IMG/VR virus record: IMGVR_UViG_3300026097_000041
Location: 1-41,981 of that record
DNA from: a virus
Reading direction: 5' to 3' (one strand)
Length of the DNA stretch: 41,981 bases
Every line of letters starts with the position of its first letter. Within the stretch, counting starts at the first letter, position 1. Positions 3,743-39,770 of the stretch are shown piece after piece. The translations under genes and the position numbers were made by a program. A model generated the notes under the pieces. It had not been told where the DNA came from and made no database searches. It saw only the letters and a list, made by a program, of their open reading frames with translations.

Positions 3743-3906
3743 TGGATAGACAATCAAAAGACGAAAATACATCAAAAGAACAAATCGACGAATTCTTAGC
3801 AAAAGGTGGTACCATTACTAAGTGTCCTCCAGGAGCACGTACAGAAAACATCGAAGTTAAGGGCGGCTTCTACGGCCGTAAAAAGAAAAAGGACGATGAT
3901 GAATGA
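3739..3906 (+). CDS. Small protein with FLAKGG motif
   Basis: A 55-residue hydrophilic protein. Its core EQIDEFLAKGGTIT resembles EMIDAFLKKGGAVT in the protein at 38174-38356, and its C-terminus is strongly charged (RKKKKDDDE). The two genes are probably members of one small phage family. The role is unknown; the basic patch could bind nucleic acid. The start overlaps the mazG-like stop and the stop overlaps the protease start (ATGA). Confidence 0.6.
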   Translation: MMDRQSKDENTSKEQIDEFLAKGGTITKCPPGARTENIEVKGGFYGRKKKKDDDE

Positions 3907-5111
3907 AGACGTTAGCAGTACAAAAATACAAGGCTAAGAAAGCAGAAAAAGTTATTCCTGTTGCAGCATTGCCATTATTGGCAGGATGTTATAATAGCAG
4001 CAATGAACAACACACGGTACAGACGCCTATTAACGAAATAAACAACAAGACTGACAATGAACCAGTTGTTGTAATACTTGATTTTTTTCAAACAAACACA
4101 TACCACGGACCGCAGGTGCTAAAAAACTTCTACGGTGAATTTCTCAGTGACAGTAAAGAAGTAACTGTAATTGCAGAGGATGTTGATCCTGAAAAATCTC
4201 CTGGTGTGGTACTGAGAGTGTTTGAAGACTTTGATCCAGATGTAGTAAATGTCAGTTGGGGATGGGACATAGATACGTTTTATCCTTATATCGGCGAATA
4301 TAAAGATCATGATCCTGGTTTTACTGGATACATCAATCACCTGCAAGACATTCAGACATTATACGAAAATGGAGTTACTATAACCGCAAGTGCCGGTAAT
4401 GATGGTATAGACGGCGCAACCAATGCTACATTTGCCAATAGTATATTTCCTATTATGGTAGGTGCTTACAGTCAATATAATGGCGAAATTTATGACTGGA
4501 GCGACCAAGGCAGTGCAGTTGTCCATTACTATGAATCAGGCGATGGCTGGGGAATAGAAGGAACAAGTTATGCTGCGCCTAGAGTTGCTGCACATGTTGC
4601 TACTATCAAAAGTGAGTATCCGGATATTAGTGAAAGTTCAGTAAGAACACTGCTAGAAAAGAATAGTATGTATGATTTTGACAGCGGAAAATATGTTCAA
4701 AAATTAGACGAACTAGACAAAACAATGGATCCAAGTATTGATACTCAAGTTAAGGTAGAGTCTGTTTTTGAAATCTTCGAAGGCAGAAATCCTAGTCAAG
4801 TAGAACTTGACAGATGGATCGAGTTAGTAGACAGTGGAAATGAAACACTAGGTTCGATGGCTATGCAGTTTGCTATAAATGGTATTCAAACTGATGATGT
4901 TCCGCCTATTGAACGTATGCAAGCATTTTACCATTTTTGGTTAGGTAGAGAATCTAAGGATACAGAGATTGTGGATATGTTCAGTGATTTAGTTGATACG
5001 CAAGATTGGAACAAAACATTTGATAACTTTATTGAAACAGAAAACATTGACACAGACTATAGTTTTGTGTATAATAATTACGATGCATTAACAACAGAGG
5101 CAATAGTATAA
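3903..5111 (+). CDS. Subtilisin-like (S8) serine protease lipoprotein
   Basis: A 402-residue protein. It has a basic N-terminus, a hydrophobic stretch and a lipobox L26-A-G-C29, so it should be exported and lipid-anchored at Cys29. The catalytic residues fit a compact subtilase: Asp60 (VVVILD), His68 (HGPQV), oxyanion Asn166 (SAGND) and Ser222 in GTSYAAPRVAAHVA. Only seven residues separate Asp60 from His68, which is short but seen in some S8 proteases. Residues about 285-400 hold two repeats resembling DUF4214 (VFEIFEGRNPSQVELDRW; FYHFWLGRES). The target is unknown. It directly precedes the clamp-loader gene, whose start it overlaps by one base. An exported protease in a replication operon is unusual. 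Confidence 0.75.
   Translation: MKTLAVQKYKAKKAEKVIPVAALPLLAGCYNSSNEQHTVQTPINEINNKTDNEPVVVILDFFQTNTYHGPQVLKNFYGEFLSDSKEVTVIAEDVDPEKSPGVVLRVFEDFDPDVVNVSWGWDIDTFYPYIGEYKDHDPGFTGYINHLQDIQTLYENGVTITASAGNDGIDGATNATFANSIFPIMVGAYSQYNGEIYDWSDQGSAVVHYYESGDGWGIEGTSYAAPRVAAHVATIKSEYPDISESSVRTLLEKNSMYDFDSGKYVQKLDELDKTMDPSIDTQVKVESVFEIFEGRNPSQVELDRWIELVDSGNETLGSMAMQFAINGIQTDDVPPIERMQAFYHFWLGRESKDTEIVDMFSDLVDTQDWNKTFDNFIETENIDTDYSFVYNNYDALTTEAIV
5047..5075 (+). promoter_or_regulatory. Host-type promoter TTGACA-17-TATAAT inside the protease gene
   Basis: TTGACA at 5047-5052, a 17-bp spacer and TATAAT at 5070-5075: a perfect sigma-70 consensus. It lies in the last codons of the protease gene, 36 bases before the clamp-loader ATG. 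Confidence 0.75.
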
Positions 5112-6025: not shown

Positions 6026-6367
6026 ATGACATATATTGTAAATGATGCATGTATCAAATGTAAACATATGGATTGTGTAGAAGTATGTCCAGTAGACTGC
6101 TTTTATGAAGGTGAGAACATGTTGGTTATTAATCCAACAGAATGTATTGATTGCGGAGTATGCGAACCTGAGTGTCCTGCAAACGCTATTTTGCCTGATA
6201 CAGACGATACTGCAAAATCATGGATAGACTTTAATCAGAAGTACTCAGATTTGTGGCCTAATATTACAGAAATGCGTCCTGAAGATGTACCTGCTGATGC
6301 TGAACAATGGCACGGTGTAGAAAACAAAATAGAATACTTTAGTGAAGCCCCAGGAAAAGGCGACTAA
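6026..6367 (+). CDS. fdxA: 7Fe-8S/4Fe-4S ferredoxin, FdxA type
   Basis: A 113-residue ferredoxin. The cluster ligands are C9, C17, C21 and C25, and C40, C43, C46 and C50 ([11 protein letters not shown]), with the [10 protein letters not shown] segment typical of FdxA. The C-terminal extension YSDLWPNIT and the terminal APGKGD are hallmarks of alphaproteobacterial FdxA, so the gene looks host-acquired and intact. It could supply low-potential electrons to iron-sulphur enzymes such as QueE (40491) or to the host's reductive metabolism; that is inference. It sits flush against the clamp loader, and its stop overlaps the next ATG. Confidence 0.93.
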
Positions 6368-11380: not shown

Positions 11381-12229
11381 ATGAGTGCTGAACATTTTGA
11401 ATTTGAATTCACAGAAGATCAAGTTATCGAGTTACTAAGAGGTAACGAAGAAGCAGAAGATTGGTATGACGCAATGTGCGAAATACTCCCGCTTTGGGAA
11501 ATCAATACTATTCCTAGAGTAGCAGGGTTTATTGCACAATGCGGGCACGAATCAATGAATTTTAAAGTTATTAGTGAGAATCTAAACTATAGTGCAAAAG
11601 CACTAAATGCAATTTTCCCAAAATACTTTGAAAGAGCAGGGAGAGATGCAAGTGAATATCATAGACAACCTCGCAAAATTGCGAACGTTATTTACGCAAA
11701 CAGAATGGACAACGGAGACACAGACAGCGGTGACGGCTGGCGCTTCCGTGGAGGTGGCCTTATTCAGCTTACAGGACGTTATAACTATACAAAATTTGCA
11801 GAAGCAGTAGAAATGACTCCGGAAGAAGCAATCGACTATGTACGCACTAAAAAAGGCGCACTAGATAGTGCTTGCTGGTTCTGGGATGAAAATAATATCA
11901 ACAGATATTGTGATAATGCAGACATTGTTGGAATGACCAAACGTATCAACGGCGGCACAATCGGCCTAGAAGATCGTAAAAAACACTGGCAACACGCACT
12001 AGAAGTTTTCGGTGGTGATTGGGAGCCAGGAAAAGTTGCCTACGAAACCGTGAAGCTAGGTTCAAGAGGCCCAACCGTTACAGCAGTACAAGAAGAATTA
12101 GAAATTAGTGCAGACGGTATCTTTGGACGTGGCACAGAAGCACATGTTAAGGCATGGCAAGAAGAAAACGGTCTTGTAGCAGACGGTATTATGGGCCCTG
12201 CGAGTCTTGCTATGATGTTTGGAGATTAA
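11381..12229 (+). CDS. GH19-type endolysin with C-terminal peptidoglycan-binding domain
   Basis: A 282-residue muramidase/chitinase-fold lysin. The catalytic domain (about 10-200) has E57 in CGHESMNF and GWRFRGGGLIQLTGRYNY, both typical of glycoside hydrolase family 19. Residues about 215-280 form a PG_binding_1 domain (VKLGSRGPTVTAVQ, DGIFGRGTEAHVKAWQ, DGIMGPASL). There is no signal peptide, so release needs a holin. Directly downstream are the spanins, a membrane protein, a lipase and an EF-hand membrane protein. A ribosome site, AAGGA, precedes the ATG. Confidence 0.9.
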   Translation: MSAEHFEFEFTEDQVIELLRGNEEAEDWYDAMCEILPLWEINTIPRVAGFIAQCGHESMNFKVISENLNYSAKALNAIFPKYFERAGRDASEYHRQPRKIANVIYANRMDNGDTDSGDGWRFRGGGLIQLTGRYNYTKFAEAVEMTPEEAIDYVRTKKGALDSACWFWDENNINRYCDNADIVGMTKRINGGTIGLEDRKKHWQHALEVFGGDWEPGKVAYETVKLGSRGPTVTAVQEELEISADGIFGRGTEAHVKAWQEENGLVADGIMGPASLAMMFGD

Positions 12230-12230
12230 T

Positions 12231-12698
12231 ATGAGACTTTCAGCTATACTATTTGTTATAATTTTAGTAATGGGAGGAATCGGTTACTGGTATTACAACG
12301 ATACACAAGCGACTATTTCAACACTAACTGAAAATAATGCTAAGTTAGGTATGGCAGTTGAAACTCAAGAAGTAGCAATAGAAAGTTTACAACAAGACTA
12401 TGCTTCTATGGCTGCTGAAAATCAACGCATCAATGAAGCATATGCTGATATACGTAGACAAAATAATAGATTGTCAGAAAAACTTAGCGACATTGATTTA
12501 GGTCTACTAGCAGCAGAAAAACCAGATAGTATCGAACGTGCTGTAAATAGAGGTACAGTAAATGCGGGCAGGTGTTTTGAAATACTATCAGGTTCGCCAC
12601 TAACAGAGGATGAATTAAATGCAAAAGACGGTGAGAGTTTTAACAAAGAGTGCCCTTGGCTTTGGCCTGGTCCTAGCACTAACGGCGTGCTCGAGTAA
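12231..12698 (+). CDS. Inner-membrane spanin (Rz-like)
   Basis: A 155-residue protein: an N-terminal membrane anchor (residues 2-22, LSAILFVIILVMGGIGYWYY), then a long coiled coil (about 30-95) and a globular end. This is the standard i-spanin plan. I start it at the ATG at 12231, which has a GGAG 6 bases upstream; a TTG at 12219 would add four residues. The o-spanin gene begins inside its 3' end in another frame, as in Rz/Rz1. Confidence 0.8.
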   Translation: MRLSAILFVIILVMGGIGYWYYNDTQATISTLTENNAKLGMAVETQEVAIESLQQDYASMAAENQRINEAYADIRRQNNRLSEKLSDIDLGLLAAEKPDSIERAVNRGTVNAGRCFEILSGSPLTEDELNAKDGESFNKECPWLWPGPSTNGVLE

Positions 12699-13020
12699 TC
12701 CACTTCAGAGAATTGAAGTAAGTGCTAAACCTATAGACAAACCTGAGCTTACATTACCTCCTGTTGACGAACTTCGTTTACGTAATATTGACTGGGTAGT
12801 TATTAATGCAGAAAATATGGAAGAAAAAATAGCAGAATTAACTGCTAACGGTCAACCTTATGGGCTGTTTGTTCTTACTGGTGAAGGTTATGAAAATCTT
12901 GGGCTAAATTTTTCAGATATCCGTGCGCTAGTACAACAACAAAAACAAATTATTTTAGCTTATGAGCGTTATTACAAAGAAGCAGAACAGGCACTAGACG
13001 GCGCAGTTCAAGCCGAATAG
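12619..13020 (+). CDS. Outer-membrane spanin lipoprotein (Rz1-like)
   Basis: A 133-residue lipoprotein. Signal KSALGFGLVLALTAC ends in a lipobox with Cys24. A Pro-rich region (ELTLPPVDELRL) follows, and the C-terminus is helical. The first 80 bases overlap the i-spanin gene out of frame, which strongly supports a two-component spanin that fuses inner and outer membranes at lysis. It is longer than classical Rz1, with an extra C-terminal domain of about 80 residues. Confidence 0.8.
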   Translation: MQKTVRVLTKSALGFGLVLALTACSSNPLQRIEVSAKPIDKPELTLPPVDELRLRNIDWVVINAENMEEKIAELTANGQPYGLFVLTGEGYENLGLNFSDIRALVQQQKQIILAYERYYKEAEQALDGAVQAE

Positions 13021-13021
13021 T

Positions 13022-13029
13022 TATAAATA
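13022..13029 (+). promoter_or_regulatory. T4 late promoter box TATAAATA
   Basis: An exact TATAAATA just after the o-spanin stop, 27 bases before the ATG at 13057, which also has a strong AAGGAG ribosome site. Confidence 0.7.
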
Positions 13030-13056
13030 GTTTATTAATAAAAAGGAGATCCAAAT

Positions 13057-13365
13057 ATGGCAATAATACAAAAACTTATTTTTGAAAAAGCTGGTGATAG
13101 CACGTTTAATGCACAATCATTGAAGACAATAATAGAAAGTGCTGCTCACTATGTAGCAGTTGGTCACGGACTACGTGAGGTATCGAATAGTTTTACTCAA
13201 GCAGTGAAAGAAGAATTTGGAAAAGTAACATATACTAGAAATTGGAAAAGTGAAACTGCATATAAAGCTTATAAAGTAAAAATGTCTGCATTAAATGATC
13301 AACATAGAGCAGATATTAGAGCAAAAGGTGTTGATGTTACAGTAACAGAAGATGTAATGCCGTAA
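13057..13365 (+). CDS. Hypothetical late protein
   Basis: A 102-residue basic, helical protein (MAIIQKLIFEKAGDSTFNAQSL...) with its own late box and an AAGGAG ribosome site, so strong late expression is expected. It sits between the spanins and the lysis-related membrane genes. No domain is recognised; a small abundant virion protein is one possibility. Confidence 0.75.
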   Translation: MAIIQKLIFEKAGDSTFNAQSLKTIIESAAHYVAVGHGLREVSNSFTQAVKEEFGKVTYTRNWKSETAYKAYKVKMSALNDQHRADIRAKGVDVTVTEDVMP

Positions 13366-13388
13366 CAATTATCTGAGGGCATTAACTA

Positions 13389-13670
13389 ATGGGCGAGTTA
13401 TTAAACAAATTACTAGATGATACCTTATGGATCTATACCAGTATTCTAGGCGCACTTTTGGGCGCAGCATTTTTAGCATATTTTAAAGATACTAGAGCAG
13501 GCATTTGGTGCTATGCTCGTCTAGATCAGTTCCTTGATTATCTAGTAGAGCGCTGGGGTCTTACTTGGTTAGAACAACCAGAAGATGCCTGGCGTAAAAA
13601 ATACCCTAAAATTACCAAAAAAATAGACGATCTAGAAAGTCGTCTCAAAAAACTTGAGGGCAAAGAATGA
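13389..13670 (+). CDS. Membrane protein with C-terminal coiled coil, holin candidate
   Basis: A 93-residue protein. One membrane helix (about residues 12-32, TLWIYTSILGALLGAAFLAY) follows an acidic N-terminus. The C-terminus has a short coiled coil (KKIDDLESRLKKLEGKE). It lies within the lysis block, so a holin or antiholin role is plausible but unproven. The lipase gene overlaps its stop (ATGA). Confidence 0.7.
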   Translation: MGELLNKLLDDTLWIYTSILGALLGAAFLAYFKDTRAGIWCYARLDQFLDYLVERWGLTWLEQPEDAWRKKYPKITKKIDDLESRLKKLEGKE

Positions 13671-14434
13671 TAGCAGATTTAACATTCTACGAACAAAGTC
13701 TATTATTTGCTAAACTAAGTCAAATAGCATATATGGACAAAAAAGAAGCAAAGAAAGCAGTAAAACCACTAGGGTTTAATGACGTAGAATTTTACGAACT
13801 AGGTGGCGCACAGGCTTATCGTTTTCAAAACACTACAGATATAGTAATTGCTTGTAGAGGAACACAACCTAACGAATTTAACGATGTAAAAGCAGATCTA
13901 AAGGCTGCTCCTGTGCTAGCTGAAACCGTAGGACGAGTACACGTAGGATTCAAAACAGAAGTAGACGAACTTTGGCCTATGGTATTAGAAGATTTAAAAG
14001 CACCTGGGGTTAAAAATCTAGATGTTTGGTTTACAGGTCATAGTCTCGGCGCAGCAATGACTACTATTATGGCCAGTCGCTGTAATCACGATGCTACTAT
14101 GCCCGATATTGATGCAGTATTTACATTTGGATCACCTAGAGTAGGATGGAGAAAGTATTGCAAATCATTAGATGTGCCTCACGCACGTTGGGTTAATAAC
14201 AATGATATTGTTGCACGAGTACCTTTGGCAATAATGGGGTATGTGCATCACGGTAAAGAACACTATATGAATGCACACGGACTAGAAAGAAAAATGACAG
14301 GTTGGCAAAGAACAAAAGACCGTTGGCGTGGTATTAAGATGGGTTGGAAAACTGGAAGTATAGATAGTTTTTCAGATCACTCAATGGTAAACTACATTGC
14401 TAATTTAGAAAAAATAATAGAGGAGGGCAAATAA
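13667..14434 (+). CDS. Class 3 lipase (alpha/beta hydrolase)
   Basis: A 255-residue enzyme of the fungal-type class 3 lipase family. GHSLGAA gives the nucleophile Ser126; Asp180 (NNNDIVARVP) and His238 (SDHSMVNY) complete the triad, and IACRGTQP is the usual oxyanion-strand motif. No signal peptide is present. Its position in the lysis block, between two membrane proteins and after endolysin and spanins, suggests it attacks host phospholipids at lysis. Nutrient recovery from lipids is an alternative. Coupling to both neighbours is tight. Confidence 0.88.
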   Translation: MIADLTFYEQSLLFAKLSQIAYMDKKEAKKAVKPLGFNDVEFYELGGAQAYRFQNTTDIVIACRGTQPNEFNDVKADLKAAPVLAETVGRVHVGFKTEVDELWPMVLEDLKAPGVKNLDVWFTGHSLGAAMTTIMASRCNHDATMPDIDAVFTFGSPRVGWRKYCKSLDVPHARWVNNNDIVARVPLAIMGYVHHGKEHYMNAHGLERKMTGWQRTKDRWRGIKMGWKTGSIDSFSDHSMVNYIANLEKIIEEGK

Positions 14435-14435
14435 T

Positions 14436-14876
14436 ATGCCAAGAAAGAAGCCAGACGAGCTAAAAAGTACCAAAGCAGCGCCTGCAACATCAGCAGCAGC
14501 TCCGGCAGCAAAGAAACCAGCTCCGGCAGCGCCGGCTGTAGCAACACCAGCTGTAGCAACACAACCTTCTACAGGTTATCATACTGCTGATATAAACGGT
14601 GACGGAGTTATTGACGACGAAGAAAAGGCAATGGAATTAGAGTTTAGACGCAAAGCACTAGAAGATCAAGATGCTATGCGAGATGCACAGCGTTCGATGA
14701 CTTGGTTTGCATTGTTTGGACTATTACTATATCCACTGGCAGTTGTAGGTGCTAGCTTGGCGGGCTTGAGCGAAGCACAAAAAACTCTAGGTTCAATGGC
14801 ACCAACATATTTTGTTGCTGTTGCTGGTATTGTTGCAGCATTTTTTGGAGCACAAGCATATACTAAAAAGAAATAA
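14436..14876 (+). CDS. Two-helix membrane protein with an EF-hand loop, holin candidate
   Basis: A 146-residue protein. Residues 1-45 are a basic, Ala/Pro-rich flexible region. Residues 52-63 form a full EF-hand calcium loop, DINGDGVIDDEE (ligands D52, N54, D56, D60 and E63). Residues 64-87 are a charged helix. Two membrane helices follow (about 88-112 and 119-142), with a KKK end. Two helices, small size and a lysis-block position fit a holin. The EF-hand would make it calcium-responsive; that is inference. Confidence 0.75.
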   Translation: MPRKKPDELKSTKAAPATSAAAPAAKKPAPAAPAVATPAVATQPSTGYHTADINGDGVIDDEEKAMELEFRRKALEDQDAMRDAQRSMTWFALFGLLLYPLAVVGASLAGLSEAQKTLGSMAPTYFVAVAGIVAAFFGAQAYTKKK

Positions 14877-14894: not shown

Positions 14895-14929
14895 AATAGT
14901 CCATACGATAAGTAAATGTATGGACTATT
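14895..14929 (+). promoter_or_regulatory. Perfect 12-bp hairpin burying the dnaJ start codon
   Basis: AATAGTCCATAC (14895-14906) and GTATGGACTATT (14918-14929) are perfect inverted repeats with an 11-base loop. The dnaJ ATG (14920-14922) lies inside the 3' arm. The loop begins GATAAGTA, one base off the late box GATAAATA. The stem would block initiation on read-through RNA. Confidence 0.75.
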
Positions 14930-15732
14930 ATTCTATCCTAGGCATTCCTAGAACAGCATCAACAGATGAAATAAAAAAAGCATACCGTAAAAAGGCAATG
15001 CAAAACCACCCTGACAGAGGCGGTGATGCTGAAGTGTTTAAGCGTATCAACGAAGCTTATGATACACTAAAAGACCCCCAGAAAAAAACTCAATACGATA
15101 ATCCACACGACCCAGGTTTTAGTTTTAGATCAGATAATTTTCAAAACGGTAATCCGTTTGCAGGATCACCTTTTGAGCATATGTTTCGGCAGCCAAGTCA
15201 TACTCCGAGAAATCGAGATATTGTATTAGAAGCAGTTATTGAATTAAAGGATGTATTGTTAGGCAAAGTCCTTGTTATGCAATACAGATTACAAACAGGT
15301 GAAATAGAAACCGTGACGGTAGAAGTGCCGCCTGGTGCAAAGACAGGTGACACAATTAATTATCAAGGGTTAGGTGACAAAGGACATCCGCGACTTCCTC
15401 GAGGCGATTTAAAAATAAGAATTAGAGTTAAGAAACATAAGATCTGGGCTCGAGAGGACAACAATTTAATTTTTAAAAAACATATAAATGTGTTTGACTT
15501 AATGCTAGGTTGTGTTATAATAATACAGACACTAGACAGCAAAAGCATAAGGCTAACTATACCCAAAGGCACAAAGCCAGGCGTAACATTCAGTATAAGT
15601 GGTTATGGAATTCCAGATCTACACACAAAACAACGAGGTAATGTATATGTTAAAATCGAAGCAGATATACCTTTAGTTGAAGATGAAGAAATAATAACCC
15701 AAATTCAAAACATAAGAAATAATCTATATTAA
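14920..15732 (+). CDS. dnaJ: DnaJ/CbpA-like J-domain co-chaperone
   Basis: A 270-residue class B J protein. The J domain (1-65) has the HPD motif in NHPDRGG and starts [16 protein letters not shown] short Gly/Phe-rich linker (about 66-95) follows, then the two C-terminal substrate-binding barrels ([29 protein letters not shown]). There is no zinc-finger region. It would deliver substrates to the host DnaK. No strong ribosome site is seen, and the start codon sits in a 12-bp stem, so translation is likely conditional. clpA follows. Confidence 0.9.
15494..15521 (+). promoter_or_regulatory. Host-type promoter TTGACT-16-TATAAT inside dnaJ
   Basis: TTGACT at 15494-15499, a 16-bp spacer and TATAAT at 15516-15521. 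It lies about 225 bases before clpA, inside dnaJ. It could express clpA independently of dnaJ. Confidence 0.55.
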
Positions 15733-15745
15733 AAAAGGATAAGAT

Positions 15746-17992
15746 ATGGTAGAACCATCAAAAGAACTACAACTAGTATTTGACAAAGCAATCAATGATG
15801 CAAAAAAATTGCAGCATGAGTATGTAACTGTCGAACATCTGGTGTATGCTATGCTTTGTGAAGAAAACTTCATTAACACAATGGGCGTGTTTGGAGCAGA
15901 CGTAGACTATATTAAAAATAATATTGAACATCATCTAAAAAATAATTGTGATGAAATTACCATTTCTGAAACAAAGTTCAAACCTCGTAAAACACAAACG
16001 GTAGAACGTGTACTTAATCGTGCATTTACACAAGTTCTCTTTGCAGGACGTCAACATATCGACTTGCCTGATGTTTTACTAAGTGTGTTAGGTGAAAAGA
16101 AAAGTATTGCTGTATACTATCTTGAAAAAGGCGGAATAGCAAAGGCCAAGTTTGCTGAATTTGTTAATGAAGAACTTGATGATGATCACATTCACGAAGA
16201 AGAAATTTCGACTGAAGCAAAGAAAGCACTACGTGCATTTACCGTTGATCTAAATGATCAAGTAAAACGAGGCAAAGTTGATCCTATTATTGGACGCTCA
16301 GAAGAATTAGAACGTGTTGCACTTGCTCTAGGACGGCGCTCAAAGAACAACGTGTTGCTAGTAGGTGATCCTGGTGTAGGTAAAACTGCTATTGCAGAAG
16401 GTCTTGCTTTTAATATCGAACAAGGACATGTCCCTGACTTCCTTAAAGAATACAAAGTATACAACTTAGACATCGGTAGTATGCTTGCTGGATCGAAATA
16501 TCGAGGCGACTTTGAAGAACGCTTTAAACTAGTACTACAGGCGCTTACAAAGCAAGGCAAAACAATTATGTTTGTTGATGAAGCACATATGATGAATGGT
16601 GCTGGCGCAGGCGGTAGTGGAAACTCAAACGATCTTGCTAACATGCTCAAGCCTGCACTTACCAAAGGTGATTTGAAAGTTGTTGCATCAACTACTTGGG
16701 AAGAATATCGTAAGTACTTTGAAAAGGATCGTGCTCTTATGCGTCGATTCCAACGTGTAACGGTAAGCGAACCTACACCAGAAGTAACTAAAGATATTTT
16801 ACGTGGTCTTAAAAAGTACTATGAAGATTATCATGGTACGGAAATTACAGAAGATGCTATCGAAGCGGCTGTAAAGCTTAGTGTAAAATATCAATCGGAC
16901 AAGAAACTTCCTGATAAAGCAATTGATTTGATTGATGTAGCATGTGCTCGTTTTAAACTTAAAGATGATCACGAAGGTGATAAGATTGTTGGTGAGGCAC
17001 AAGTTCAATTTGAACTTGCCAAAATGGTTAATATGCCTGCTGAACAAGTTGCTGAAAAAGAAAGCGAGAATTTAGCCAATCTTGAGAAGAATATTAAAAG
17101 TTCAGTATTCGGACAAGACGATGCTATTGAATCAATTGTTGACAAAATTCTCGTGTCGCAAGCAGGTCTTAAACCGGATGATAAGCCTATCGGTGCATTT
17201 GTGTTTATGGGCCCAACAGGTACCGGTAAAACAGAAACAGCTAAAGCACTTGCAAATAATCTAGGCGTAAAATTAGTAAGATTTGACATGTCAGAGTATA
17301 TGGAAAAGCATAGTGTTGCTAAACTAATTGGTTCGCCTCCGGGTTATGTAGGACATGAAGACAATGGCGGACAATTAATTACTAAACTACAAGAAAATCC
17401 AAACTGCGTATTGTTACTTGACGAGATCGAGAAAGCACACCCAGATGTTTCACAAATTTTATTGCAACTTATGGACAATGGTAAAGTAACAGGGTCTAAT
17501 GGTAAGGAAGCAGACGCTCGTAATTGTACACTAATCCTTACAACTAACTTAGGTGCTGCACAGGCAGAAAAAAGTTCAATTGGATTTAGTACAGAAGAAG
17601 ATAATACCTACGAAGATACTGAATTTAAGAAATTCTTTGCTCCAGAGTTCCGCAACAGACTTGATGGTGTAATTACGTTTGCTAAACTTGGTAAAGAAGT
17701 AATGATGAAAATTGTTGGTAAATTCTTGCTCGAGCTTAAAACAATGGTCAAAGACAAAAACATTGCTATCGATATTACTGACGAAGCACTTGACTACTTG
17801 GTAGATAAAGGATTTGATCCTAAAAATGGTGCTCGTCCGCTACAGCGTGTAATTGATAAAGAAATCAAGCGTCCATTAAGTCGTCAAATTTTGTTTGGAA
17901 CTCTTAAAGGCGGAGGTAGCGTAACTATTGATTTCCGAAACGAAGAAATTAAATTAGATGTAGTAACCGATGATCAAACTGAAACAGTTTGA
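15746..17992 (+). CDS. clpA: ClpA-type AAA+ unfoldase
   Basis: A 748-residue, full-length class I Clp/Hsp100 protein. An N-terminal double Clp repeat (about 1-145) is followed by two AAA modules with Walker A at 207-214 (GDPGVGKT) and 489-496 (GPTGTGKT). The long middle domain of ClpB is absent. The loop SIGF with I612-G613-F614 matches the tripeptide that docks ClpA on ClpP, so it can probably partner the host protease. No phage clpP was seen. It could redirect host proteolysis or unfold assembly intermediates. The next gene starts 23 bases before its stop. Confidence 0.92.
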   Translation: MVEPSKELQLVFDKAINDAKKLQHEYVTVEHLVYAMLCEENFINTMGVFGADVDYIKNNIEHHLKNNCDEITISETKFKPRKTQTVERVLNRAFTQVLFAGRQHIDLPDVLLSVLGEKKSIAVYYLEKGGIAKAKFAEFVNEELDDDHIHEEEISTEAKKALRAFTVDLNDQVKRGKVDPIIGRSEELERVALALGRRSKNNVLLVGDPGVGKTAIAEGLAFNIEQGHVPDFLKEYKVYNLDIGSMLAGSKYRGDFEERFKLVLQALTKQGKTIMFVDEAHMMNGAGAGGSGNSNDLANMLKPALTKGDLKVVASTTWEEYRKYFEKDRALMRRFQRVTVSEPTPEVTKDILRGLKKYYEDYHGTEITEDAIEAAVKLSVKYQSDKKLPDKAIDLIDVACARFKLKDDHEGDKIVGEAQVQFELAKMVNMPAEQVAEKESENLANLEKNIKSSVFGQDDAIESIVDKILVSQAGLKPDDKPIGAFVFMGPTGTGKTETAKALANNLGVKLVRFDMSEYMEKHSVAKLIGSPPGYVGHEDNGGQLITKLQENPNCVLLLDEIEKAHPDVSQILLQLMDNGKVTGSNGKEADARNCTLILTTNLGAAQAEKSSIGFSTEEDNTYEDTEFKKFFAPEFRNRLDGVITFAKLGKEVMMKIVGKFLLELKTMVKDKNIAIDITDEALDYLVDKGFDPKNGARPLQRVIDKEIKRPLSRQILFGTLKGGGSVTIDFRNEEIKLDVVTDDQTETV

Positions 17993-32993: not shown

Positions 32994-34625
32994 ATGAATA
33001 AAGACCTAACCGCAGCACAAAACGATTACGCACACTTCTTGCCTGCACTAAGTGGGTTTTATGCAACCTATGTGGGCAAGCAGCGTTATCCTGATCCTGT
33101 CAAAGGTCCTTATGTTCCTGACAATCGTATTCCTAGCAACTTCCAAAATAATGTTGAAAGTCTTAACTATCTTAATGCAAAAGAAGGTGCGTTCACTTAC
33201 AAGTGGACGCTCTACTCTGCAGGACACGCTGACTTAGATGTTAACAAGCATGTTCCTAAAGAAGATATGATTAGGAACAGAGATCGTGAAAATACTTGGT
33301 TGCTAGGCGACAGTGGTGGCTTCCAGATTGGTAAGGGTGTTTGGGAAGGTGATTGGAAAGATCCTAATTGCCCTAAGGCACAAAAGAAACGTGACGGTGT
33401 CCTACGTTGGATGGACGCTTACATGGACTATGGAATGATTCTTGATATTCCGGCGTGGGTTGCACGTAGCCCTGCAGGTGCAAAGGCAACAGGTATCAGC
33501 ACATATGACGAAGCTGTTGCTGCAACACGCATCAACAATGACTACTGGATGAAGCATAGAACAGGTGCTTGTAAGTTCCTAAACGTTCTACAGGGTGAGA
33601 ATCACGCAGATGCAGATGACTGGTACGAGCAAATGAAAGACTATTGCGATCCAGTCAAGTATCCAGACAATCACTTTAACGGGTGGTCAATGGGTGGTCA
33701 GAACATGTGTGACGTACACTTATTACTCAAGCGTATTGTAGCACTGCACTACGACGGATTACTACAAAGCGGTGTACACGATGTAATGCACTTCCTTGGC
33801 ACAAGTAAACTAGAGTGGGCTTGCTTGCTAACAGACGTACAACGGGCTGTACGCAAGTACTACAACCCAACGTTTATGGTTACCTTTGATTGTGCAAGTC
33901 CTTTCCTTGCAACAGCAAACGGACAAGTTTATACTTCTAACGAAACACCAGATAGAGGTAAATGGACCTATCGAATGTTGCCTAGTGTAGATGAACTAAA
34001 GTATGCTACTGACACACGAACATTTAAAGATGCTACTACACAAGATGGTATTTTTAAAGTATTTGAAGATAGTCCACTAACTGACGGATTGCTAGTAAGC
34101 GACATTTGTACATACAAAAAAGGTGATCGTAATAAAATTGGTGTGCCTAAAGTAAGTGCAGGCGAAGTTGAACTTGACAAGAACGATCAACCTGTACTAG
34201 ACAAAGACGGCAATCAAATCGTTCGCAAGAAAGACTCAACAAGCTGGGATAGCTTTAGTTATGCTATTCAGATGGGTCATAACGTATGGACGCACATCAA
34301 TGCTGTACAAGAAGCTAATAGACAATATGACGCAGGTGTTATCCCAAAGATGCTTGTACAAGAACAATTTGATAGAGTACTGGTTAGAGATGTAATGGAC
34401 GAAATCTTTAGTAAAACAACTAGAGAAGAGTCTTTAGAAGTCATTGAAAAGTATTCAAAACTATGGATGTCTATACCAGGCACACGAGGTGCTATTGGTA
34501 AAAAGACCGTAAACAGCTCAACATTCTTTGATGCGCTATTTGAAGTAGAACAAACTGAAGAAACAGATGAAGAAGAATTAGACGAGGCTAAATTGGAGGA
34601 ACTCGAGGATGAGCAACTATCCTGA
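32994..34625 (+). CDS. dpdA: DpdA-like DNA guanine/7-deazaguanine transglycosylase
   Basis: A 543-residue protein of the tRNA-guanine-transglycosylase fold. D106-S-G-G-F-Q111 is the substrate-binding DSGGFQ motif. D151 in LDIPAW is the candidate nucleophile. GWSMGGQ supplies the GG loop. Phage DpdA enzymes swap guanine in DNA for 7-deazaguanine bases. FolE, QueE and a QueD-like protein lie in the same block, which supports DNA modification rather than tRNA modification. The C-terminal about 35 residues are very acidic. It overlaps the YdcH-like gene by 17 bases. Confidence 0.85.
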   Translation: MNKDLTAAQNDYAHFLPALSGFYATYVGKQRYPDPVKGPYVPDNRIPSNFQNNVESLNYLNAKEGAFTYKWTLYSAGHADLDVNKHVPKEDMIRNRDRENTWLLGDSGGFQIGKGVWEGDWKDPNCPKAQKKRDGVLRWMDAYMDYGMILDIPAWVARSPAGAKATGISTYDEAVAATRINNDYWMKHRTGACKFLNVLQGENHADADDWYEQMKDYCDPVKYPDNHFNGWSMGGQNMCDVHLLLKRIVALHYDGLLQSGVHDVMHFLGTSKLEWACLLTDVQRAVRKYYNPTFMVTFDCASPFLATANGQVYTSNETPDRGKWTYRMLPSVDELKYATDTRTFKDATTQDGIFKVFEDSPLTDGLLVSDICTYKKGDRNKIGVPKVSAGEVELDKNDQPVLDKDGNQIVRKKDSTSWDSFSYAIQMGHNVWTHINAVQEANRQYDAGVIPKMLVQEQFDRVLVRDVMDEIFSKTTREESLEVIEKYSKLWMSIPGTRGAIGKKTVNSSTFFDALFEVEQTEETDEEELDEAKLEELEDEQLS

Positions 34626-34818
34626 AGAAGCTGATAAGTTAAAATCACACTTAGAAGAGCTTACTCGGAAGCATAGAGAACTTGACACAGAGCTTGAAGT
34701 AAAGTATAATAATATGACTATAACAGCAGAAGTCCGACGATTAAAAACTATGAAACTCTATCTCAAAGATGAAATTCACCGTATTAATACTAGACTTACA
34801 CAAATAGGCTTAGAATGA
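34609..34818 (+). CDS. YdcH/DUF465-like small coiled-coil protein
   Basis: A 69-residue protein matching the DUF465/YdcH pattern: LKSHLEELTRKHRELDTELE, then AEVRRLKTMKLYLKDEIHRI. This family is common in proteobacteria and of unknown function. The gene starts inside the dpdA end and contains the promoter at 34682. Confidence 0.7.
   Translation: MSNYPEEADKLKSHLEELTRKHRELDTELEVKYNNMTITAEVRRLKTMKLYLKDEIHRINTRLTQIGLE
34682..34710 (+). promoter_or_regulatory. Host-type promoter TTGACA-17-TATAAT inside the YdcH-like gene
   Basis: Perfect consensus: TTGACA 34682-34687, TATAAT 34705-34710. The start-point region TAATAATATGA is identical to that of the folE promoter (39750-39761). It would serve the genes from 34815 onward. 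Confidence 0.75.
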
Positions 34819-34946
34819 AAGAACATACCTTTAACGAACTTCTAAAAGTATTTAGAGATGCAGGTCTTGAATACTACGTTAAAAAGAACAAAGATGGTAT
34901 TGTTAAAGTCCACTTCTTAGTTAAGGAAGAAATAAATGAAGCGTGA
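34815..34946 (+). CDS. Small HicA-sized hypothetical protein
   Basis: A 43-residue basic protein (MKEHTFNELLKVFRDAGLEY...). A helix followed by strands gives a faint HicA or double-stranded-RNA-binding look, too short for a call. It overlaps both neighbours (ATGA; 11 bases). Confidence 0.5.
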   Translation: MKEHTFNELLKVFRDAGLEYYVKKNKDGIVKVHFLVKEEINEA

Positions 34947-35454
34947 GTACAAAACAGGCACAGCAGATAGTATTACATTCTTTACGGGTGTAGAAGTTGA
35001 AAAGACTCCTGCGTTCGGAATGAAGACACTATTTGTTACAGGTGTGCAGGATGTGGAAACTATTTTAAACTACGCAGCAGGACAGGGCTGCGAACACATC
35101 TTCTTTGGTGCCAATCATTCATACAATCCTGTTGTAAACGATGACTGGGAAGCGTGGGAAGATATGATCGAACACTTCCTTAAGAAAGACTTCCTTTGTA
35201 CTCTAGATATTCCATTAGATGCTTGTCGCGAGTTTCACGACGGCGGACTTGCCGAGTACGATAACTTTATTCCGCAAATTCGTGTTCCATTGCCTTACAC
35301 GAAACTTTGGAACTACAACACAATGGTTAAGATTGATGATGTAGATTTTAAGGCAACTAATCCCGGCGTCTGGTGCCATAGTTTGCACGATCTAATGGAT
35401 AGAGAAAAATTCACAGATTGGAATGAGTATAAAAATGACACAATCATCAAATGA
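34936..35454 (+). CDS. Conserved-looking protein of unknown function in the deazaguanine block
   Basis: A 172-residue protein of alternating strands and helices (MKTLFVTGVQDVETILNYAA; CEHIFFGANHSY; DFLCTLDIPLDACREF), suggestive of a TIM-barrel-like half. DFKATNPGVWCHSLHDL looks like a conserved end. No cofactor motif is visible. Its place between dpdA and the QueD-like gene makes it a candidate accessory for base modification; inference only. A ribosome site GGAAGAAAT precedes the ATG. Confidence 0.75.
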   Translation: MKREYKTGTADSITFFTGVEVEKTPAFGMKTLFVTGVQDVETILNYAAGQGCEHIFFGANHSYNPVVNDDWEAWEDMIEHFLKKDFLCTLDIPLDACREFHDGGLAEYDNFIPQIRVPLPYTKLWNYNTMVKIDDVDFKATNPGVWCHSLHDLMDREKFTDWNEYKNDTIIK

Positions 35455-35656
35455 CAGAGATAGAGAACTTGTAGGTATATTAGATTCTATTGAGAGTCAT
35501 ATAAAAGAACTTGTAAAGATTACAAAAGAAAATAACGAAGTTTTAAAAACTATGGACTGGAAACTTTGGGAACAAATGAAAGTATTAAAATCGCAAGCAT
35601 ATGCAGATAATCTTGAAATATTTGAGCCACAAGAGCTTGACAAAGACAACAAATGA
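35435..35656 (+). CDS. Small coiled-coil protein
   Basis: 73 residues from the ATG at 35435; an ATG at 35423 would add four residues. A heptad-rich helix (ILDSIESHIKELVKITKENN) is followed by an acidic end. It overlaps the previous gene. The function is unknown. Confidence 0.6.
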   Translation: MTQSSNDRDRELVGILDSIESHIKELVKITKENNEVLKTMDWKLWEQMKVLKSQAYADNLEIFEPQELDKDNK

Positions 35657-35671
35657 GTATAGTATTAAACA

Positions 35672-36115
35672 ATGCAAGAACGCTATCACGATTACATATT
35701 ACGTAGAATGAGAGAAGAAAACAACAATATGCAAAACGCAGAACGTAGTATTTGGGTAACCTTTGCTAAAGAAGGTGTACACATGTACCCAGGCGCAGAT
35801 ACTGATCCTAAACTAGCAACTGGCGATTGGGATGACGTAAGTTTCCTTGGTATTCCACATCGTCATATCTTCCATTTCCGTGTGCGCATCGAAGTATTCC
35901 ACAACGATCGCGACATTGAATTCATTCAGTTTAAACGCTGGATGCAACGACTCTATGACGTCGAAGGCGTACTAGAGTTAAACCACAAGTCATGTGAGAT
36001 GATCGCAGATGACTTGTATCAAGAAATCGCTGCAAAGTATCCCGGCCGCTTTGTAGAGATTAGTGTCGCTGAAGACAACGAAAACGGCTGTTCTATTTTT
36101 TACCCTAAGTCATAA
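35672..36115 (+). CDS. QueD/PTPS-like T-fold protein
   Basis: A 147-residue protein aligning by eye with QueD (6-carboxy-tetrahydropterin synthase). VTFAKEGVHMYPG and IPHRHIFHFRVRIEV supply three His like the zinc ligands, IEFIQFKRWM matches the DFxxLK region, and SCEMIADDLYQEI plus ISVAEDNENGCSIFY match the C-terminal Glu region. The catalytic Cys four residues before HxH is Leu here, and the DH pair is not kept. The chemistry may therefore differ. The start is uncertain: no ribosome site precedes 35672, and ATGs at 35708 or 35729 keep the whole domain. Confidence 0.65.
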   Translation: MQERYHDYILRRMREENNNMQNAERSIWVTFAKEGVHMYPGADTDPKLATGDWDDVSFLGIPHRHIFHFRVRIEVFHNDRDIEFIQFKRWMQRLYDVEGVLELNHKSCEMIADDLYQEIAAKYPGRFVEISVAEDNENGCSIFYPKS

Positions 36116-36130
36116 CAAGAGGAATATATT

Positions 36131-36334
36131 ATGACAATTGCTAACCCAGCAGTGAATAAAGTGTTTAACGATCTTGAAGCATACAAAGACTGGTGTCGTT
36201 TTGAAGGTAAGGTGTTTGACGAAAAAGCACTTTATAAGAAAAATGATCCAAATTGGATTGCGTATCAAAAGTATCAAGGCTGGCTTCGATCTAAAGCACG
36301 TAATACTGAACGTAATAACACTCGGAGAAATTAA
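36131..36334 (+). CDS. Small hypothetical protein
   Basis: A 67-residue basic protein. The core AYKDWCRFEGKVFDEKALYK and PNWIAYQKYQGW looks conserved and aromatic-rich, with an Arg/Asn tail. A good AGAGGA ribosome site is present. The function is unknown. Confidence 0.7.
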   Translation: MTIANPAVNKVFNDLEAYKDWCRFEGKVFDEKALYKKNDPNWIAYQKYQGWLRSKARNTERNNTRRN

Positions 36335-36336
36335 TT

Positions 36337-37413
36337 ATGACCATCTACATTGTAGACATTGAAGCTGTAGACACACGCTATACTAAGCAATGGAAAGAAT
36401 ATCTTCCAAAGCAACTTCAACATGCTACAAATGTAGATGTTCGAGTGATTAGCGGTGGGGAAACGCCTCAGGCAACTACGCCTGGGGCTTTCCTTAACTT
36501 CGGTGGTACTAACGTTTATAAATCGAAACAGCTCGAACAGATTGGCGAGATGTTTTGCAACGGAGAAATTAAAGATGGAGATTATTTCCTATATACGGAT
36601 GCGTGGAACCCTACTGTTATCCAGTTGCGCTACATGGCTGAACTCCTTGGGGTCGACATTGGAATCGGTGGCCTTTGGCATGCTGGTAGCTATGATCCTC
36701 ATGATTTCCTTGGTAGGCTGATAGGAGACGCACCTTGGGTACGTAATGCAGAAGCAAGTATGTTTCATGTGTACGACGACAACTTTTTTGCTACAGACTT
36801 TCATATAGACTTGTTTGCACAAGGCTTGTTTGACGAAGACGACTCAGATGAACTACGTGAATACTATCCTAGTATCAAGCGTGTAGGCTGGCCTATGGAG
36901 TATTTGAAAGATAGTCTTACACAATATAAAGGAATGGAAAAGCGAAATCTTATCTTGTTTCCACATCGTGTAGCATCAGAGAAACAAGTAGATATATTTC
37001 GTGACCTAGCAGAACAATTACCTGAATATGAGTTTGTTGTGTGTCAAGAGCGTGAACTTACTAAGAATGAGTATCACAATTTGTTAGGTGAAGCAAAGAT
37101 GGTATTCTCTGCTAACTTGCAAGAAACACTCGGAATCAGTTGGTACGAAGGTGCTATTACTAATGCTATTCCCATGGTTCCTGATAGACTCAGCTACACA
37201 GAAATGGCACTACCTGAGTTTAAATATCCAAGTGCGTGGACTGAAGATTTTGCAGCCTATAGACAGCACAGAGGCGAGGTTGTTGATCGCGTAAGAGAAT
37301 ATATGGAAAATTACAATGACTATTTGGTCAGCCTTAACAAACAGGTTACAAAACTTAATAAAGAGTTCTTCTCAGGAAAAGAACTCTACGGAGCAATTGC
37401 AGATGGACGATGA
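36337..37413 (+). CDS. GT-B-type glycosyltransferase
   Basis: A 358-residue protein with the GT4-like C-terminal half: RNLILFPHRVASEKQVDIFR, then EYEFVVCQE, GEAKMVFSANLQETLGISWYEGAITNAIPMVP (a donor-binding EX-type region) and DRLSYTEM. The N-terminal half is a second Rossmann-like domain. The acceptor may be phage DNA, given the neighbouring deazaguanine genes, or a surface glycan. An unusual G+C-rich hairpin lies in codons about 41-53. A ribosome site, CGGAG, precedes the ATG. Confidence 0.8.
   Translation: MTIYIVDIEAVDTRYTKQWKEYLPKQLQHATNVDVRVISGGETPQATTPGAFLNFGGTNVYKSKQLEQIGEMFCNGEIKDGDYFLYTDAWNPTVIQLRYMAELLGVDIGIGGLWHAGSYDPHDFLGRLIGDAPWVRNAEASMFHVYDDNFFATDFHIDLFAQGLFDEDDSDELREYYPSIKRVGWPMEYLKDSLTQYKGMEKRNLILFPHRVASEKQVDIFRDLAEQLPEYEFVVCQERELTKNEYHNLLGEAKMVFSANLQETLGISWYEGAITNAIPMVPDRLSYTEMALPEFKYPSAWTEDFAAYRQHRGEVVDRVREYMENYNDYLVSLNKQVTKLNKEFFSGKELYGAIADGR
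36459..36493 (+). repeat. Strong 14-bp hairpin inside the glycosyltransferase gene
   Basis: Left arm 36459-36473 and right arm 36480-36493 pair over 14 bp with one G-U pair and one bulged C; the loop is AACTAC. It is a G+C-rich patch in an AT-rich genome. No T-run follows, so it is not a classical terminator. Confidence 0.7.
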
Positions 37414-37741
37414 CGAGTATACTATAGATATATCGACTATGGACGGAACTACTAGTACTATTACTTTAACTGCTCCTGTAGATGCTAATGTAGGCGACGT
37501 ATGGCTTGATACAAATGTGTATTCTATAGATAATTCTTGGATTACAATAGATGACACTATTGATATAAGTGGTATTACTTTAACTGAGCCTGTTGAGTTT
37601 GAAGATACTATGCCTAGTGTTGCCAAAGTAGAAGATATGTGCAATGATTATCCAGCATTAGAGAAAGCCTATGAAAACTTTAAAACAATTTACAAAATGG
37701 TTCACCAAGACTGGCAAGGAAGACAAGACGAAGAATCTTGA
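37403..37741 (+). CDS. Beta-rich hypothetical protein with YPALxKAYENF tail
   Basis: 112 residues from the ATG at 37403, which has a GGAG upstream and overlaps the glycosyltransferase stop. Residues 1-70 are acidic and strand-rich (MDGTTSTITLTAPVDANVGD). The C-terminus DYPALEKAYENFKTIYKMV resembles the ends of the next proteins at 37764 and 38353. A virion accessory role is possible; unproven. Confidence 0.65.
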   Translation: MDDDEYTIDISTMDGTTSTITLTAPVDANVGDVWLDTNVYSIDNSWITIDDTIDISGITLTEPVEFEDTMPSVAKVEDMCNDYPALEKAYENFKTIYKMVHQDWQGRQDEES

Positions 37742-37763
37742 TTATAATCCAGGACAGGATTAT

Positions 37764-38174
37764 ATGAAGCGCATACGCGAACGAAAACAGGCAGAAAAGA
37801 AGCGGTTAGAGAAATGGCGAAAAGAAATGAAAACAACATTTAATTCTACATACAATACAAACTCTTCTATTGGACACTTGCCGGGATCTGTTACTGCTAA
37901 AAACACTAGTACTATTACTAGAAATAATATTAGCAACAGTGCTATTATTATGAACGGTGATCCTACTAATGGTAGTATGCAAGTCAACGTTCCGCTGATG
38001 GTAGATGGCAGAGACGTTATGAAAGAACTTGACGAGATGCGTGATAGTCTGTTATTATTAAAGCGAGACGTAGACATGGAAGAGAAGTATCCTAGACTAC
38101 GAGAAATAAAAGACGAATACGAACGTGCTCTTGAAAAATATAAAACATTTGATGCAATAAAGGAATCTAAGTAA
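37764..38174 (+). CDS. Hypothetical protein with beta-roll-like middle and coiled end
   Basis: 136 residues from the ATG at 37764 (AGGACAGGA upstream). An ATG at 37671 would add 31 residues but overlap the previous gene by 71 bases. A basic helix (RIRERKQAEKKRLEKWRKEM) is followed by Asn/Thr/Ser-rich repeats (NTSTITRNNISNSAIIMNGD) and then a helical end with EEKYPRLREIKDEYERAL. No family is recognised. Confidence 0.6.
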   Translation: MKRIRERKQAEKKRLEKWRKEMKTTFNSTYNTNSSIGHLPGSVTAKNTSTITRNNISNSAIIMNGDPTNGSMQVNVPLMVDGRDVMKELDEMRDSLLLLKRDVDMEEKYPRLREIKDEYERALEKYKTFDAIKESK

Positions 38175-38356
38175 TGGCAATGAATCATCAACCTAAAAAG
38201 AATACCGATCAAGAAATGATCGATGCGTTTCTTAAAAAGGGCGGTGCTGTTACTGTAGGAAAAACTAAACCTATGCCTAGTGAACTTGGCATTAGTAACA
38301 ATCAATGGAACAACAAACTATCCAAAGCAGAAAAAAACGCAAAGGACGGCAAGTGA
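38174..38356 (+). CDS. Small protein with FLKKGG motif
   Basis: A 60-residue basic protein. EMIDAFLKKGGAVTVGK parallels the protein at 3739-3906. The C-terminal half (LGISNNQWNNKLSKAEKNAK) differs. A short nucleic-acid-binding role is possible. The start overlaps the upstream stop (TAATG). Confidence 0.65.
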   Translation: MAMNHQPKKNTDQEMIDAFLKKGGAVTVGKTKPMPSELGISNNQWNNKLSKAEKNAKDGK

Positions 38357-38655
38357 TACCAGTTCATACAGATTTTCAAATTCCATACACTTGTAACGGT
38401 GAGGAGCGTGGCGTTGAAGGCGAAGTTCGGGCAATCAACGGTCAGTTAAAAGTTTTTAACGGCAGCATGTGGGAACAAGTACACAATGATGCTTGGGTGG
38501 ATAGTATTGATCTAGGAACTGTTGTAGAATGGGCTAAACAAAAAATGGAGCAAGAACTGCGTGAACAGGCGTTGGCAGAACAGTTTCCCGCATTTGCTAA
38601 AGCAAAAGAAAACTACGAGTTAATAAAGAGGTTAGTAGAAAATGAAGTGGCTTAA
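38353..38655 (+). CDS. Hypothetical protein
   Basis: 100 residues from the GTG at 38353, overlapping the upstream stop as GTGA, with an AGGA nearby. A longer frame from 38305 would cover the previous gene. An N-terminal beta domain (VRAINGQLKVFNGSMWEQV) is followed by a helical end, EQFPAFAKAKENYELIKRL, like the tails of the genes at 37403 and 37764. Confidence 0.65.
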   Translation: MIPVHTDFQIPYTCNGEERGVEGEVRAINGQLKVFNGSMWEQVHNDAWVDSIDLGTVVEWAKQKMEQELREQALAEQFPAFAKAKENYELIKRLVENEVA

Positions 38656-38926
38656 GAGCAAAGTAATCAAATGGGTCCGCGAAGATTGGGACGCACAATA
38701 CGAGAAGAATGCTGTATCAGGCATTCGATTAGATGAAAGTGTTCGTATGGATGCAGAACCTACTCTAAACTTCCGTGTATTCCCAGCAGTAGGTGGACAG
38801 GTTGTAGAGTTTAGACGCTATGATCGCGTAAAAGATCATAGCGATGTTACTACATACATCATCAACAAAGATGATGACTTTGGCGAAAAGATTAGTAAGA
38901 TTGCAAACTTGGAGTTGCTCAAATGA
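38642..38926 (+). CDS. Hypothetical protein
   Basis: A 94-residue protein: a basic Trp-rich start (MKWLKSKVIKWVREDWD), then a beta-rich part (TLNFRVFPAVGGQVVEFRRYD). It overlaps both neighbours. No domain is recognised. Confidence 0.7.
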   Translation: MKWLKSKVIKWVREDWDAQYEKNAVSGIRLDESVRMDAEPTLNFRVFPAVGGQVVEFRRYDRVKDHSDVTTYIINKDDDFGEKISKIANLELLK

Positions 38927-39486: not shown

Positions 39487-39510
39487 CAAATCATAACATA
39501 GGAAAGGAAT

Positions 39511-39717
39511 ATGGATTTGAAAGAACAATTAGTAAAGGCAGCACGTATGCATGCTGAAGGAGAGCTCGAAAGAGCAAAGACTAACATTATGGTATATATG
39601 AATCAAAGTGTAGGTATTGGCGAACACAGCGATATTGTAGAAGCTATTCAACACGAACTTGATACTATGGCAACTGCCAATGATCGTATTGAAATGCTTG
39701 ACAAGTTTTTTACATAA
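39511..39717 (+). CDS. Small helical hypothetical protein
   Basis: A 68-residue helical protein (LKEQLVKAARMHAEGELERA; HSDIVEAIQHELD) with a good AAAGGA ribosome site. No recognised family. It is followed by the folE promoter. Confidence 0.7.
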   Translation: MDLKEQLVKAARMHAEGELERAKTNIMVYMNQSVGIGEHSDIVEAIQHELDTMATANDRIEMLDKFFT

Positions 39718-39721
39718 ACAC

Positions 39722-39750
39722 TTGACAAAAACCTAAATATATGGTATACT
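39722..39750 (+). promoter_or_regulatory. Host-type promoter TTGACA-17-TATACT upstream of folE
   Basis: TTGACA 39722-39727, 17-bp spacer, TATACT 39745-39750, preceded by AACAC. It drives folE, queE and probably metK. Confidence 0.85.
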
Positions 39751-39770
39751 TAATAATATGAGTGTACCAT
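39741..39770 (+). promoter_or_regulatory. Operator-like dyad over the folE -10 box
   Basis: ATGGTATACT (39741-39750) and AGTGTACCAT (39761-39770) are inverted repeats with 9 of 10 positions matching and a 10-base spacer. The left arm contains the -10 box and the start point lies in the spacer. As RNA it gives a 10-bp stem with one G-U pair. Confidence 0.65.

Follow-up and report, generated by a model that had tools for sequence, protein, structure and literature searches.

Among described phage lysis systems, the lambda S-R-Rz-Rz1 cassette is a close counterpart of the locus analysed here, a block at positions 11381-14876 of a 41,981-base linear virus record (IMG/VR IMGVR_UViG_3300026097_000041), the whole of which we call the window. 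Like the lambda cassette, the block is co-oriented and combines an endolysin without signal sequence, overlapping spanins of the Rz/Rz1 type and small membrane proteins. It differs from lambda in that it matches no annotated holin family and in that it continues after the spanins with a lipase and two membrane proteins, both uncharacterised. These are XHLA, a class 3 lipase and a hairpin protein with an EF-hand-type loop (the EF protein). The stretch is a lysis block. It represents a real and recurrent form of the phage lysis cassette for which, as far as could be found, no description exists. Within it, EF and XHLA are the genes linked to lysis; the lipase is a mobile, optional companion, often though not always attached to XHLA.

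Each of these three proteins has described counterparts. Class II holins such as lambdoid S21 share with the EF protein two helices, a predicted N-in/C-in topology, a basic tail and a lysis-block position. In contrast to them, the EF protein, whose membrane role is predicted, shows no sequence match and adds a calcium-type loop and a charged helix ahead of its first transmembrane (TM) helix. XHLA resembles XhlA of the PBSX haemolysin family (PF10779) in its small size, single helix, predicted coiled coil and position beside lysis genes. In XhlA the coiled coil is N-terminal and the helix C-terminal, whereas in XHLA the helix comes first. Membership in this family was rejected, as the score is 23.7 bits against a cut-off of 34.7, the match is limited to the helix and the order of the two elements is reversed.

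The window lipase shares with the class 3 lipases (PF01764) of Rhizomucor miehei and Thermomyces lanuginosus and with plant phospholipase A1-II the fold (Z 21-24), the GHSLG nucleophile, the Asp and the His. It differs from them in lacking a secretion signal, in being encoded in a viral operon and in having its own basic, Trp-rich segment at about residues 212-230 between Asp and His. The 'lipase' of cyanophages P-SSM2 and P-SSM5, which are marine and T4-like, is likewise related to Lipase_3. It has 27-41% identity and lies beside a tRNA ligase gene, with no XHLA, EF or spanin gene recognised nearby. A precedent for a different envelope is mycobacteriophage LysB, a lipolytic esterase of the serine hydrolase type that is encoded in the lytic cassette, acts next to endolysin and holin and attacks the mycolyl-arabinogalactan of mycobacteria (PMC5707550). 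The window enzyme instead belongs to Lipase_3 and occurs in phages that have spanins, so that the hosts are probably Gram-negative. In family comparison it matched only Lipase_3 and PHROG 21992 (esterase/lipase), and LysB was not among the listed structures.

The EF family itself occurs in cultured phages. Proteins of pelagimyophage HTVC008M and of the OM43 phage Melnitz-3 have 58-82% identity over the loop and helices; their genes lie between gp51-like and tape measure genes and not, as in the window, in a lysis block. In its treatment of lysis, the Melnitz paper gives no holin and puts CsgG forward as the pore (PMC9004378). A literature search of partial coverage, with most subscription journals outside it, returned nothing on EF-hand holins, calcium-timed holins or a phage lysis protein that senses an ion, nor on a lipase or phospholipase in a Gram-negative phage lysis block.

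The EF protein and its linkage to lysis genes

Relatives were compared in several hundred IMG/VR loci. Each scan contributed its best-scoring 80 loci, a non-random sample, and extra loci were retrieved with divergent queries beyond the first scans. Gene calling in the loci was automatic, and the labels, assigned from BLAST or profile matches, are accordingly approximate. Scans of viral contigs gave more than 500 stretches encoding EF among the matches listed; relatives of the lipase were encoded in 331 stretches and relatives of XHLA in 392.

The loop of the EF protein reads D52-I-N-G-D-G-V-I-D-D-E-E63. Among 45 non-redundant members, D52, G55, G57 and E63 are invariant, position 54 is N or D and position 60 is S, D or T in all 45, and position 56 is D in 44/45 (N in one). 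The loop presents the EF-hand ligand pattern at positions 1, 3, 5, 9 and 12 with Gly at position 6. A profile of the family retrieves calcium-binding EF-hand proteins from the PDB, best 1jfj (E 4.6e-8) and then calmodulins. The Pfam EF-hand_5 score of the protein is 14.2 bits against a cut-off of 25.9, and single sequences stay below threshold; we therefore speak of an EF-hand-type loop and of no full EF-hand domain. Hydrophobic segments are located at about residues 91-109 and 121-139. The two-helix EF-loop protein of the sequence-only reading, a predicted membrane protein, is confirmed, with a loop above chance by its conservation in 45 members and its PDB profile matches.

In the structural model (predicted local distance difference test, pLDDT, 73), helix 61-108 follows directly after the loop and a second helix spans residues 112-144. 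No helix precedes residue 61 in the model except at residues 6-9, where confidence is low, and the sequence contains a single loop without a paired second EF-hand. A search of this model, of modest confidence, against viral structures gave no match. In all 45 members positive charges flank the helices on either terminal side, with few in the loop that connects them; this predicts, by charge only, an N-in/C-in topology with the EF loop in the cytoplasm.

EF relatives are found in phages of SAR11, OM43 and roseobacters. In bacterial genomes they occur in metagenome-assembled bins only, and these are probably stray phage contigs. For linkage counts, members were dereplicated at 80%, loci were taken from EF queries and a span of four genes was considered; a canonical lysis gene is an endolysin, holin or spanin. 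Such a gene lies within four genes of EF in 21/35 dereplicated loci, and all 36 of these genes are on the EF strand. The density of lysis genes is 0.13 near EF vs 0.03 further away. When lipase and XHLA genes are counted together with lysis genes, 53 of 96 dereplicated EF loci have one within four genes. Examples from cultured phages are CRP-207, in which EF adjoins lysozyme, the unrelated roseophage CRP-810, in which it adjoins a gene transfer agent (GTA)-type holin and a GH108 endolysin, and Limnohabitans phage DC31, in which EF is followed by a spanin-like gene (not holin-like) and then an M15 peptidase.

Conservation of gene order in relatives holds in part. The lineage of the window keeps the order endolysin-Rz-Rz1-XHLA-(lipase)-EF-dnaJ, many members lacking the lipase. 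In unrelated backgrounds the parts are reordered as Rz-Rz1-lipase-XHLA, XHLA-EF-lipase, lipase-XHLA-EF, gp41-like helicase-Rz-Rz1-EF or EF-holin-endolysin.

XHLA and the class 3 lipase

XHLA has one hydrophobic segment and a charged heptad-like C-terminus, in agreement with the earlier description of a membrane protein with a coiled coil. Residues W14, Y16, T17, G21, G25, W68, K70, Y72 and P73 are invariant, and charge predicts an N-out/C-in topology in 35/35 members. We find no relatives in the isolate-phage collection and nothing meaningful in a PDB profile search with XHLA. Pfam, PHROG and NCBIfam give no holin match for EF, and XHLA has only the sub-threshold XhlA match. EF and XHLA are therefore filed as holin-like by position, being small membrane proteins (two TM helices and one, respectively) beside a signal-less endolysin in a lysis block.

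XHLA lies near canonical lysis genes in 11/19 loci. Among the 28 loci from XHLA queries, a lipase is located within five genes in 19 and a spanin in 15. With XHLA first, the two genes overlap by 4 nucleotides in 9 loci; with the lipase first, they overlap by 1 or 4 nucleotides in 25 loci. The pair thus overlaps whichever gene comes first. XHLA is a holin candidate and the candidate coupling partner of the lipase. A 52-residue one-helix protein (L217:7263-7421, cluster k37) recurs near XHLA and the lipase, counted 29 and 28 times as a neighbour at most four genes away, and is a further small membrane candidate of these lysis blocks.

The lipase matches Pfam Lipase_3 with E 2e-19 and 70.4 bits against a cut-off of 22. 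The Ser126/Asp180/His238 triad, reported earlier as intact, is indeed invariant in 58/58 dereplicated relatives at identities down to 27%, with Ser126 as the nucleophile of GHSLG. An AlphaFold2 model built with 49 aligned relatives reaches a pLDDT of 91 and superimposes on 4tgl with Z 24.3 (root-mean-square deviation 2.8 over 225 residues) and on 1tib with Z 23.1. It resembles Rhizomucor and Thermomyces lipases, feruloyl esterase and plant phospholipase A1, and the profile match reaches E 4e-24. The Pfam score, a GxSxG motif followed in order by Asp and His, and an alpha/beta-hydrolase fold taken from the model identify a class 3 lipase. It has no TM helix, and we see no signal peptide.

Block layout and other genes of the window

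The block sits between virion-structural-type genes (PHROG 12928, 13138) and dnaJ-clp-like genes. Endolysin, spanins, membrane protein, lipase and EF protein are in the places originally given for them; H102, between the spanins and XHLA, was absent from that list and has no relatives among the fetched loci (Table 1).

Table 1. Genes of the lysis block and EF proteins of two cultured phages
Feature	Position	Strand	Description
Endolysin	11381..12229	+	GH19-like catalytic domain and C-terminal peptidoglycan-binding domain; PHROG 181 'endolysin' E 4.3e-72, PG_binding_1 E 3.2e-10
i-spanin (Rz-like)	12231..12698	+	PHROG 739 Rz-like spanin E 1e-11; N-terminal TM residues 3-21, acidic coiled-coil periplasmic remainder
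o-spanin (Rz1-like lipoprotein)	12619..13020	+	PHROG 812 Rz-like spanin E 6e-7; lipobox LTAC
H102	13057..13365	+	soluble protein of 102 residues
XHLA	13389..13670	+	93 residues; one hydrophobic segment, then charged heptad-like C-terminus; conserved AWRKKYP-T-KID-LE tail
Lipase	13667..14434	+	class 3 lipase, triad Ser126/Asp180/His238
EF-loop hairpin protein	14436..14876	+	Ala/Pro/Lys-rich N-terminus, EF-hand-type loop D52-E63, charged helix, two TM helices, KKK tail
EF protein, pelagimyophage HTVC008M	L083:7968-8300		AGE60355.1, annotated hypothetical; gp51-like and tape measure neighbours
EF protein, OM43 (Methylophilales) phage Melnitz-3	L082:7977-8306		QZI95058.1, annotated hypothetical; gp51-like and tape measure neighbours

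The spanins had been described as nested. Their genes overlap out of frame by 80 nucleotides, and the o-spanin gene is incompletely nested in the i-spanin gene. With an N-terminal TM helix, a periplasmic helix and an overlapping Rz1 lipoprotein, the pair is of the Rz/Rz1 type. The XHLA stop codon shares an ATGA with the start codon of the lipase, and 1 nucleotide separates the lipase from EF. A candidate T4-type late promoter, TATAAATA at 13022, 35 nucleotides upstream of H102, was not used as evidence, as the window has 2 plus-strand copies vs 2.85 expected by chance; its upstream frequencies in relatives were unconvincing.

In several relatives a CHAP-domain lipoprotein, a second cell-wall hydrolase, is encoded between o-spanin and XHLA (L122:6158-6697, L251:521-1057), where the window has H102. 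Directly 3' of the block are dnaJ-like and clp ATPase-like genes (14920-17992), in a position kept across the lineage. Positions 32994-41981 possibly encode a 7-deazaguanine DNA modification pathway. Genes for GTP cyclohydrolase I (39808) and SAM synthetase (41460) are found there, as is a QueE-like radical-SAM gene (40491) that scores under the NCBIfam cut-offs; at 32994 lies a gene for a 543-residue protein that by eye resembles a DpdA/TGT-type transferase and has no Pfam or NCBIfam match. A subtilase-family protease with an extra C-terminal region (3903-5111; Peptidase_S8, E 2e-15) is unusual for a phage. A bacterial-type ferredoxin (6026-6367; Fer4 and DUF3470) is flanked by clamp-loader-like and nucleotide-metabolism genes.

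The lysis reading and its alternatives

We favour the view that the block would be the lysis operon of a large marine phage of the T4 type. No signal or signal-anchor-release (SAR) sequence is seen when the endolysin sequence is read, so that a hole in the inner membrane, and with it a holin, is expected. Hydrophobic segments are found in XHLA and EF only, besides the i-spanin and the o-spanin signal sequence. As the only membrane proteins of the block apart from the i-spanin, XHLA with its one N-out/C-in helix and the N-in/C-in EF hairpin may make or regulate this hole. Holins respond to membrane energy. The EF loop, if cytoplasmic as predicted, is most likely a calcium-binding site that would stay vacant under an intact membrane and fill once a first leak admits seawater calcium; the filled loop would favour oligomerisation and thereby an abrupt opening. 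The lipase would be a soluble cytoplasmic enzyme produced in step with XHLA. It most likely attacks phospholipids, either at the inner membrane or, after the hole has opened, at the inner face of the outer membrane, and would serve as an optional helper to the spanins. Taken as a whole, this lysis reading, with XHLA and EF as holin-type membrane proteins, the lipase as optional helper and calcium sensing by EF, seems to us about evenly balanced between right and wrong. The stronger proposal that the marine-phage EF family is a calcium-triggered holin or holin trigger, seawater calcium acting on the cytoplasmic loop, and that some lineages add a co-translated membrane-dissolving phospholipase, appears unlikely.

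Several observations weigh against the lysis reading. The affinity for calcium may be weak in a lone EF loop that no helix precedes. A loop-less hairpin takes the EF slot in L228-L240 and L254, and calcium binding is therefore no requirement of this slot. Among KVP40-type Vibrio phages this hairpin has hypothetical proteins as relatives, and its homology to EF was rejected beyond the shared N-terminal 12 residues (same MPRKK start). Loci of the roseophage type pair EF with a recognisable holin, so that EF there is an addition to a holin. HTVC008M, Melnitz and 13 of the 96 dereplicated loci place EF between the tape measure gene and a baseplate-hub region, which in most includes a gp51-like hub assembly catalyst (PHROG 634). 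Finally, the window lipase's own clade is near lysis genes in only 2/17 loci (from lipase queries, mostly this clade) and often has a virion structural gene and a pitA-like gene as neighbours. From this count, set against those for EF and XHLA, and from the lipase tree and the 112,976-base record described below, we regard EF and XHLA as lysis-linked and the lipase as mobile. The claim that an EF-hand lets calcium control the pore is unsupported in the form in which it was made, and calcium is at most a possible trigger. Positive-inside counts do put the loop in the cytoplasm, consistent with a sensor of incoming seawater calcium, but the loop-less substitutes and the tail-hub position in pelagimyophages weaken calcium gating, and the substitutes indicate that such a trigger is not universally needed.

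The alternative that survives best is an ordinary holin-endolysin-spanin cassette in which the lipase is by chance an auxiliary metabolic or egress-related gene, for instance releasing fatty acids from host lipids, with no role in lysis. We consider it possible, if rather doubtful. The closest relatives of the window lipase are mostly elsewhere, often as a single gene beside the pitA-like gene. On the lipase tree (a quick method, with a few long branches), XHLA is within five genes downstream in 20 rows, upstream in 10 and elsewhere in 25. Placement changes 9 times in all, and the starred branches force at least 5 changes of the "elsewhere" label, mostly in the 32-row clade with the window lipase. 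Lysis blocks are also present in records in which no lipase was detected; these reach 84 kb and are all fragments. Against a chance association, nearly all lipases of the deeper tree lie at most five genes from XHLA, in either order and usually with overlapping ends. Long records with the lipase elsewhere keep XHLA in three cases (112,976, 134,166 and 236,751 bases), though two others have none (133,132 and 108,479 bases); in the first, the lysis block (at about 10.5 kb) lacks the lipase, which lies at 101.6 kb. The suggested coupling of a lipase to holin-like genes thus stands as overlap and recurrent pairing with XHLA, and not as a fixed part of the block, since placement switches repeatedly in the window's lipase clade. 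The lipase is possibly a membrane-attacking helper in lysis.

As a side observation, the non-lysis lipase is often the sole gene on its strand (L097:7001-8782), flanked by a virion structural gene (PHROG 11854) on one side and an apparent phosphate permease gene on the other. The pitA label of the latter was read by eye, and it has no Pfam match; an apparent phosphate-binding protein gene lies beyond it.

EF might also be a tail or baseplate assembly protein or a virion membrane protein that uses calcium for structural stability and takes no part in lysis. T4 baseplates assemble at the membrane, which together with the position of EF between hub and tape measure genes speaks for this. We hold it to be distinctly unlikely, as lysis, lipase or XHLA genes are near EF in the larger share of loci counted above (53/96) and EF ends the lysis block in the window's lineage with no adjacent tail gene. 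That EF is an antiholin or holin regulator, with XHLA or an unrecognised protein as the holin and calcium releasing or imposing inhibition, would fit the GTA-type holin beside EF in several roseophage-type loci and the unrelated hairpin in its slot, yet other XHLA loci are entirely without EF, and we regard it as very unlikely.

Under the lysis reading, the abundant EF family, annotated hypothetical in cultured phages, supplies a specific candidate lysis membrane protein, for example in Melnitz, for which no holin has been named. With an invariant loop, its role is addressable by single-residue changes. The XHLA-lipase pair represents a second recurrent unit, and it would add lipid hydrolysis to Gram-negative lysis.

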